Below are positions 23,625 through 24,456 of a stretch of 64,000 nt of DNA, piece after piece (the stretch's first letter is position 1; every line of letters begins with the position of its first letter). The position numbers and the translations under genes were made by a program. Source of the stretch: Candidatus Nitrosopumilus limneticus (GTDB lineage: Archaea; Thermoproteota; Nitrososphaeria; Nitrososphaerales; Nitrosopumilaceae); contig JAHCGZ010000002.1 of assembly GCA_022117465.1 (NCBI GenBank), positions 62,001-126,000 on the forward strand. The letters run 5' to 3'. The notes below the pieces were generated by a model. The model was not told the DNA's origin and did not search any database. It saw only the letters and a program-made list of their open reading frames with translations.

Positions 23625-23718
23625 GGACTGGTCGTCTAGTTTGGTTTGGATGACGCACTCACACTGCGTAAGGAAGAAATTCCCGCAAAGGTCGTGGGTT
23701 CAAATCCCATCCGGTCCA
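23625..23718 (+). tRNA. tRNA-Val(CAC) with a 19-nt intron in the variable loop
   Basis: Acceptor GGACTGG/CCGGTCC, D-stem GTCT/GGAT, anticodon stem ACGCA/TGCGT with loop CTCACAC (anticodon CAC at 23660-23662), T-stem GTGGG/CCCAT. Between anticodon and T stems are 24 nucleotides instead of five. Removing 19 nt (23670-23688 or 23671-23689, both give the same product) leaves the standard variable loop AGGTC. The insert forms a bulge-helix-bulge: TGCG (23665-23668) pairs with CGCA (23684-23687), with 3-nt bulges TAA and AAG, an inner GGAA/TTCC stem and a GAAA loop. The 3' CCA is not encoded in full. Confidence 0.93.
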
Positions 23719-23790
23719 CCTTCATTTTATTATTAATTAATTGAATCAAAATACAAAATAACTATATGAGATGATTAATTATTAAAAAAA

Positions 23791-24456
23791 ATGTCATATT
23801 ATAATCACATACCAATTAATTTCAGACAAGCAGTATTAATTAAAAAAGATAATGCTCATTTTTACCAAACACCAACTGGAGAAACATATCCATCTATTAC
23901 AACAATATTACAGGAGACAATATCAAGAGAGAGAAAAGAAAATTTACAAAATTGGAAAGAACAAGAAAGAGCTGCAAATTACATTACTGAAGAAGCCGCA
24001 ATTATAGGCACAGAAACTCACAAATTAATAGAAAATCACATAAATGAAGTAAGACAAACTGATGAAGTCAGATTACTTTCAGTTGCACATTTTAACAATT
24101 TGATTCCATTTTTACAAAAAATCAATGATGTTTATGGGACAGAATTAAGAATGTATAGTCATGTAATGAAATTAGCAGGAACGTCAGATTGTATAGCAAA
24201 TTATGATGGAGAGTTATCCATAATTGATTATAAAACTAAAAGAAGTAATCAAAAAGAGGAATGGATTACAGATTATTTTATTCAAGGCACAGCATATGCA
24301 CAAATGTTTAAGGAATTAACAGGAATTGAACCAAAACAAGTAGTAATTCTAGTAAGTAGTGAAAAAAATTCAAGAATGGAATTTGTAAAAAATACTGAAG
24401 ATTACAAAGATTTACTCACTCAACGCCTAAATCAATATTATGATGTTTTAGAATAA
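23791..24456 (+). CDS. PD-(D/E)XK superfamily nuclease-like protein
   Basis: A 221-residue protein with a RecB-like nuclease core: GTETHKLIENHIN (conserved His helix, about residues 75-88), AGTSDCIANYDGELSIIDYK (catalytic Asp in GTSD and D-x-K in IDYKTK, about 130-150), and QGTAYAQMFKELTG (Gln-x3-Tyr motif). The N-terminus TPTGETYPSITTILQETIS resembles phage and mitochondrial MGME1-type exonucleases. A DNA exonuclease role in repair or replication is inferred. The upstream AT-rich region follows the tRNA-Val gene. Confidence 0.82.
   Translation: MSYYNHIPINFRQAVLIKKDNAHFYQTPTGETYPSITTILQETISRERKENLQNWKEQERAANYITEEAAIIGTETHKLIENHINEVRQTDEVRLLSVAHFNNLIPFLQKINDVYGTELRMYSHVMKLAGTSDCIANYDGELSIIDYKTKRSNQKEEWITDYFIQGTAYAQMFKELTGIEPKQVVILVSSEKNSRMEFVKNTEDYKDLLTQRLNQYYDVLE

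Follow-up and report, generated by a model that had tools for sequence, protein, structure and literature searches.

The tRNA-Val(CAC) gene of the ammonia-oxidising archaeon Candidatus Nitrosopumilus limneticus is interrupted by a 19-nt insert that we read, with a probability of about 95%, as a noncanonical archaeal tRNA intron, ordinary of its kind but very well supported and predicted to be spliced. The insert lies outside position 37/38 and forms, together with the adjoining exon, a bulge-helix-bulge (BHB) motif with a 4-bp central helix and 3-nt bulges on opposite strands. Its removal restores a standard tRNA: in 88 homologues that carry it all mature tRNA stems were 99.5–100% paired, and the 5-nt variable loop left behind is that of intronless relatives.

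The gene and its motif

The gene was found on the forward strand of the analysed stretch of 64,000 nt (the window, to which all coordinates refer). ARAGORN called tRNA-Val(CAC) at 23625-23720, and Rfam RF00005 matched 23625-23718 (47.6 bits, E 4.4e-7), placing a large insertion between the anticodon arm and the T arm. At 23625-23718 (+) the gene reads GGACTGG TC GTCT..GGAT G ACGCA CTCACAC TGCGT AAGGAAGAAATTCCCGCAAAGGTC GTGGG TTCAAAT CCCAT CCGGTCC A. The variable region thus comprises 24 nt where five are expected, and AGGTC supplies the five nucleotides of the mature tRNA. A strict BHB finder recovered TGCG[TAA]GGAAGAAATTCCCGCA[AAG], in which the inner stem has 4 bp and the outer helix 2 bp.

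An earlier note on this DNA had described a tRNA-Val(CAC) with a 19-nt intron, a 4-bp central helix, TAA and AAG bulges, a GGAA/TTCC inner stem and a GAAA loop. Every one of these elements was recovered in place, and the 88 homologues agree with the motif. The outer helix (C38-G46 and A37-U47) was absent from that description. Once its 2 bp are counted the motif is a complete hBHBh', a form given with two Watson-Crick pairs outside (PMC7714728). The features are as follows.

23625-23718, forward strand: tRNA-Val(CAC) precursor gene, anticodon CAC at 23660-23662 (ARAGORN; Rfam RF00005, 47.6 bits)
23625-23670, forward strand: predicted 5' exon, tRNA positions 1-44 (cut register of PMC12397907 applied to the BHB found)
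23671-23689, forward strand: predicted 19-nt intron AGGAAGAAATTCCCGCAAA at position 44/45 (sequence and BHB finder; 88 distinct homologues; absent at the matching loci of relatives)
23690-23718, forward strand: predicted 3' exon, positions 45-73 (sequence and BHB finder)
23665-23668, forward strand: 5' strand of the central helix, UGCG at exon positions 39-42, which in the mature tRNA is also the 3' strand of the anticodon stem (in 88 sequences, 99.7% of the central-helix cells pair)
23684-23687, forward strand: central helix 3' strand CGCA, intronic (covariation with position 39: UA 74, AU 9, GU 4, unpaired 1)
23669-23671, forward strand: 5' bulge UAA, predicted cut UA/A (TAA 76, TAT 12 of 88)
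23688-23690, forward strand: 3' bulge AAG, predicted cut AA/G (AAG 70, AGG 13, ATG 5 of 88)
23672-23683, forward strand: inner stem GGAA/UUCC with GAAA loop (all four pairs with changes on both sides)
23663-23664, forward strand: outer helix 5' strand A37 and C38, with partners U47 and G46 at 23691-23692 (100% of cells paired in 88 sequences, variation almost nil)

When the 19-nt intron was shuffled, none of 400,000 shuffles gave a 4-bp central helix and a 4-bp inner stem in register. The RNA also folded better than dinucleotide shuffles (z -2.58, 0/200).

Conservation and covariation

That the motif is real follows from the covariation of its homologues, which we regard as decisive over the shuffle tests. 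Among 95 genomes of the same genus, a DNA search recovered the insert-bearing gene in about 80, and a pattern made without the motif, run on 300 genomes from the class, recovered the insert in most genera of the family. A motif-based pattern applied to named genome contigs added records of Nitrosopumilus, Nitrosarchaeum, Nitrosotenuis and Cenarchaeum; loci obtained in this way bias the bulge and helix counts towards the motif, and the motif-free pattern shows the same sequence make-up. Matches of the contig pattern in Mycolicibacterium, Ruminococcaceae, Natrialbaceae, Planctomycetota and other unrelated records were without a tRNA acceptor stem and were set aside as chance.

In the alignment of 88 distinct intron carriers, where related sequences are counted more than once, 99.2% of the BHB cells were paired, as against 31.9–51.8% when the partners were slid by 1-3 columns, and 84 double-change cells were observed against 21 in shuffles. 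Compensatory changes occurred in both the central and the inner helix, including both sides of all four inner-stem pairs. The comparison with tRNA-Val(CAC) of relatives, suggested in the earlier note, therefore showed that 88 distinct homologues conserve the motif and that compensatory changes have occurred within it.

The variable pair of the central helix is that between position 39 and its intron partner (U-A 74, A-U 9, G-U 4, mismatch 1). The same base also pairs with position 31 in the mature anticodon stem, a pair kept in 88/88 within a stem that is 100% paired throughout. The triplets 31/39/intron were A/T/A in 74 sequences, T/A/T in nine, C/G/T in four and T/A/C in one. The use of the 3' strand of the anticodon stem for the central helix, as proposed earlier, is thereby borne out by the pairing of exon positions 39-42. 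A position 39 with two partners is not easily explained except by an exon-intron helix that would later yield to the anticodon stem, and the keeping of both through evolution makes the BHB model very secure from sequence alone.

Predicted position of the cuts

The earlier note had left the intron at 43/44 or 44/45, both giving the same mature RNA. This holds for the present species, where the predicted junction TGCGT-AGGTC is identical under either register; it does not hold for relatives with an AGG or AUG 3' bulge (13 and 5 of 88, respectively). The splicing endonuclease cuts between the central and the third bulge base at both sites (PMC12397907). Because the published cut falls after the middle bulge base, the predicted position is 44/45, with cuts UA/A and AA/G and an intron at 23671-23689. 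Parsimony points the same way: among the relatives the 5' bulge varies at its third base (A/T) and the 3' bulge at its second (A/G/T), and the 44/45 register keeps all of this variation inside the intron.

Splicing with both cuts one base earlier, at 43/44, would leave the mature RNA of this species unchanged. It conflicts, however, with the published cut at both sites, and exon base 44 would then vary between A, G and T among relatives, so that we consider it very unlikely. The two registers predict different junctions in the relatives with AGG or AUG bulges, namely TGCGTAGGTC for 44/45 and TGCGTGGGTC or TGCGTTGGTC for 43/44. A point against the BHB reading as a whole is the outer helix of only 2 bp. 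Calibration of the cut with strict BHB motifs on the host's canonical introns gave nothing usable, as their motifs are relaxed, and the published structure was used instead.

Copy number and alternative readings

The valine tRNA genes of the genome are TAC, GAC and one CAC. A second intact tRNA-Val(CAC) gene, which the earlier note had named as grounds for regarding this one as dispensable, was looked for among the 44 tRNA matches of the 95% complete genome and was not found. The gene is not proven essential, as GUG might be read by tRNA-Val(TAC) through wobble. In some assemblies there are two intron-bearing Val(CAC) genes (L091 and L181, L117 and L179, L173 and L180, L114 and L194); the intron sequence differs in three of these four pairs, which are either real duplicates or mixed bins.

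Could the insert instead be a long variable arm as in tRNA-Ser and tRNA-Leu, retained and never removed? The GGAA-GAAA-UUCC hairpin sits where the variable arm of a class II tRNA would. The isotype, however, is Val and not Ser or Leu, and at the same point the variable loop of outgroups and intronless relatives is of the normal 5 nt. The hairpin length and loop vary freely among homologues, and the covariation extends to exon base 39 and its intron partner, which such an arm would not need. We regard a retained arm as highly improbable. A decaying pseudogene with a random insertion, to which the broken-up tRNA and the score of 47.6 bits (68.5 for the intact tRNA-Thr in the window) might point, is dismissed in view of its retention in about 80/95 same-genus genomes and most genera of the family, its 99.5–100% paired stems and the lack of another Val(CAC) gene in the genome. 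We thus reject both readings on the evidence of covariation, conservation and copy number.

Folding of the precursor

For a noncanonical intron whose central helix borrows the anticodon stem, the precursor has two competing folds. In this sequence the predicted pair probability was 0.77 for the central helix and 0.19 for the anticodon stem (means 0.70 and 0.23, n=88), and the unconstrained minimum-energy fold retained the central helix in 64 of the 88, often losing the T arm. With the T arm held intact, nearest-neighbour energies favoured the cloverleaf over the BHB form by 3.5 kcal/mol in this sequence and by 3.55 kcal/mol on average, the BHB form being the less stable in 88/88. This counts against the proposed splicing, for which the BHB form would need to be favoured by the enzyme or by tertiary contacts. 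The earlier statement that the precursor cannot hold the anticodon stem is accordingly right in that this stem and the central helix exclude each other, but it overstates the occupancy.

Since exon positions 39-42 can pair with either the intron or the anticodon stem, the intron might conceivably be a folding switch that couples splicing to precursor folding and thereby regulates or checks the tRNA. We give this little credence. If true, such a switch would act on the sole tRNA that reads GUG by exact pairing.

Proposed splicing and its machinery

In the proposed pathway, exon positions 39-42 of the precursor would pair with the intron to give the bulge-helix-bulge. An endonuclease of the alpha2beta2 type would cut each 3-nt bulge behind its middle base and so release 19 nt, and RtcB would ligate the exons. 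The freed UGCG would then become the 3' strand of the anticodon stem in a normal class I tRNA-Val(CAC).

The genome encodes two PF01974 proteins and a single RtcB ligase. The PF01974 protein of 178 aa has the Tyr-His-Lys triad intact, and the proteins it most resembles are 2cv8 and 3p1z, both crenarchaeal catalytic subunits. Lys-Pro-Lys of this putative alpha subunit aligns with Lys44-Pro45-Arg46 of the crenarchaea-specific loop of Aeropyrum, in which position 46 may be Arg or Lys (PMC12397907). The other, of 220 aa and probably the beta subunit, has no His at the catalytic place. An alpha2beta2 endonuclease has been reported for Thaumarchaeota, and this type has been tied to noncanonical introns (PMC3218864, PMC4090602). 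The gene pair of the host fits the broad-specificity two-subunit alpha2beta2 type; we infer the assembly, the cutting and the joining. The earlier claim that the RNA is a splicing endonuclease substrate is supported by the strict BHB and, as judged from sequence, by genes for both a catalytic and a non-catalytic subunit.

Gain and loss of the intron

Outgroup families in the order and the class have an intronless tRNA-Val(CAC) with a 5-nt loop, and in the intronless relatives the variable loop is likewise of the ordinary 5 nt (e.g. TGCGG-AGGTC). Intronless genes were found in the genera g9, g8 and g5, and one sampled species each of g8 and g5 retains the intron. The rpoB tree, on which the history was read, requires four changes, three of them forced by the starred branches; an RtcB tree was discarded for its poor resolution and at least one mis-framed row. 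By the simplest account the intron was probably gained once on the family stem and then lost at least three times, in three genera. Flanks of a species pair in g5 match over about 2.5 kb (80.8%), one member with the insert and one without. The gene of g9 adjoins pepF, which in several genera also lies next to the copy with the intron. That a single genus offers orthologous loci both with and without a noncanonical intron is useful for studying intron loss.

A27-U43 was present in 88/88 carriers (alignment A1, columns 29 and 45), and G43 in the three intronless lineages inspected. The splice motif may be what keeps U43, the first bulge base, in place, a suggestion drawn from few independent events. 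Were the folding switch real, the fixed A27-U43 of the carriers would be a trace of its constraint.

Intron-bearing Val(CAC) genes of the Nitrosopumilaceae type were also seen in L137 (CATQHD010000001.1), L131, L154 and L233, which are labelled Acidimicrobiia or Nitrososphaeraceae or belong to a genome whose rpoB falls with another family; these contigs are likely mis-binned or mislabelled.

Relation to known introns

With tRNAscan-SE 2.0 and a covariance model trained on the phylum, 107 noncanonical introns were reported in Thaumarchaeota (PMC8450103). The Val(CAC) intron resembles those described there in being short, away from 37/38 and built on a BHB motif, in the same phylum; this gene is not listed in the main text of that paper. 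Noncanonical introns in the variable arm are known from Caldiarchaeum and crenarchaea (PMC3293823), at positions such as 45/46 (PMC4090602). The mechanism would be the same and the place nearly so; the predicted 44/45 is one base before the listed 45/46, and the central helix here takes its exon strand from the 3' strand of the anticodon stem. The kind of feature is already catalogued, and the general view of tRNA splicing is unchanged; what is added is the exact predicted position, the three-way covariation, the single-copy status and the history of gain and loss.

Apparent canonical 37/38 introns were seen in the host's Gln(CTG), Leu(CAA), Tyr(GTA) and Ser(GGA) genes (L201, L202, L208 and L210, respectively), with relaxed and not strict BHB motifs. 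They presumably share the endonuclease and ligase of the Val intron, which passed the strict finder whereas none of these four did.

Neighbourhood and other tRNA genes

Immediately downstream of the tRNA comes a gene for a PD-(D/E)XK nuclease (PF12705; window 23791-24456, forward strand). Because it was found in 24 of 140 related loci, those of close relatives, we consider it a recent neighbour. Within the window no repeat of the tRNA 3' end that would mark an element boundary was found, and the last 23 nt of the tRNA had no second copy at up to 3 mismatches as a mark of mobile-element integration, a reading that was set aside. In the relative L292 a 25-nt partial match to the tRNA, not called as a tRNA, lies 0.9 kb downstream.

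Two further tRNA genes of the host look by eye as if they carried noncanonical introns: tRNA-eMet(CAT) of 115 nt near 30/31 (L203, G000:C2:178737-178851) and tRNA-Arg(CCT) of 93 nt in the D-loop (L204, G000:C3:51264-51356). Neither was called by ARAGORN; tools without intron models thus under-annotate such genomes.
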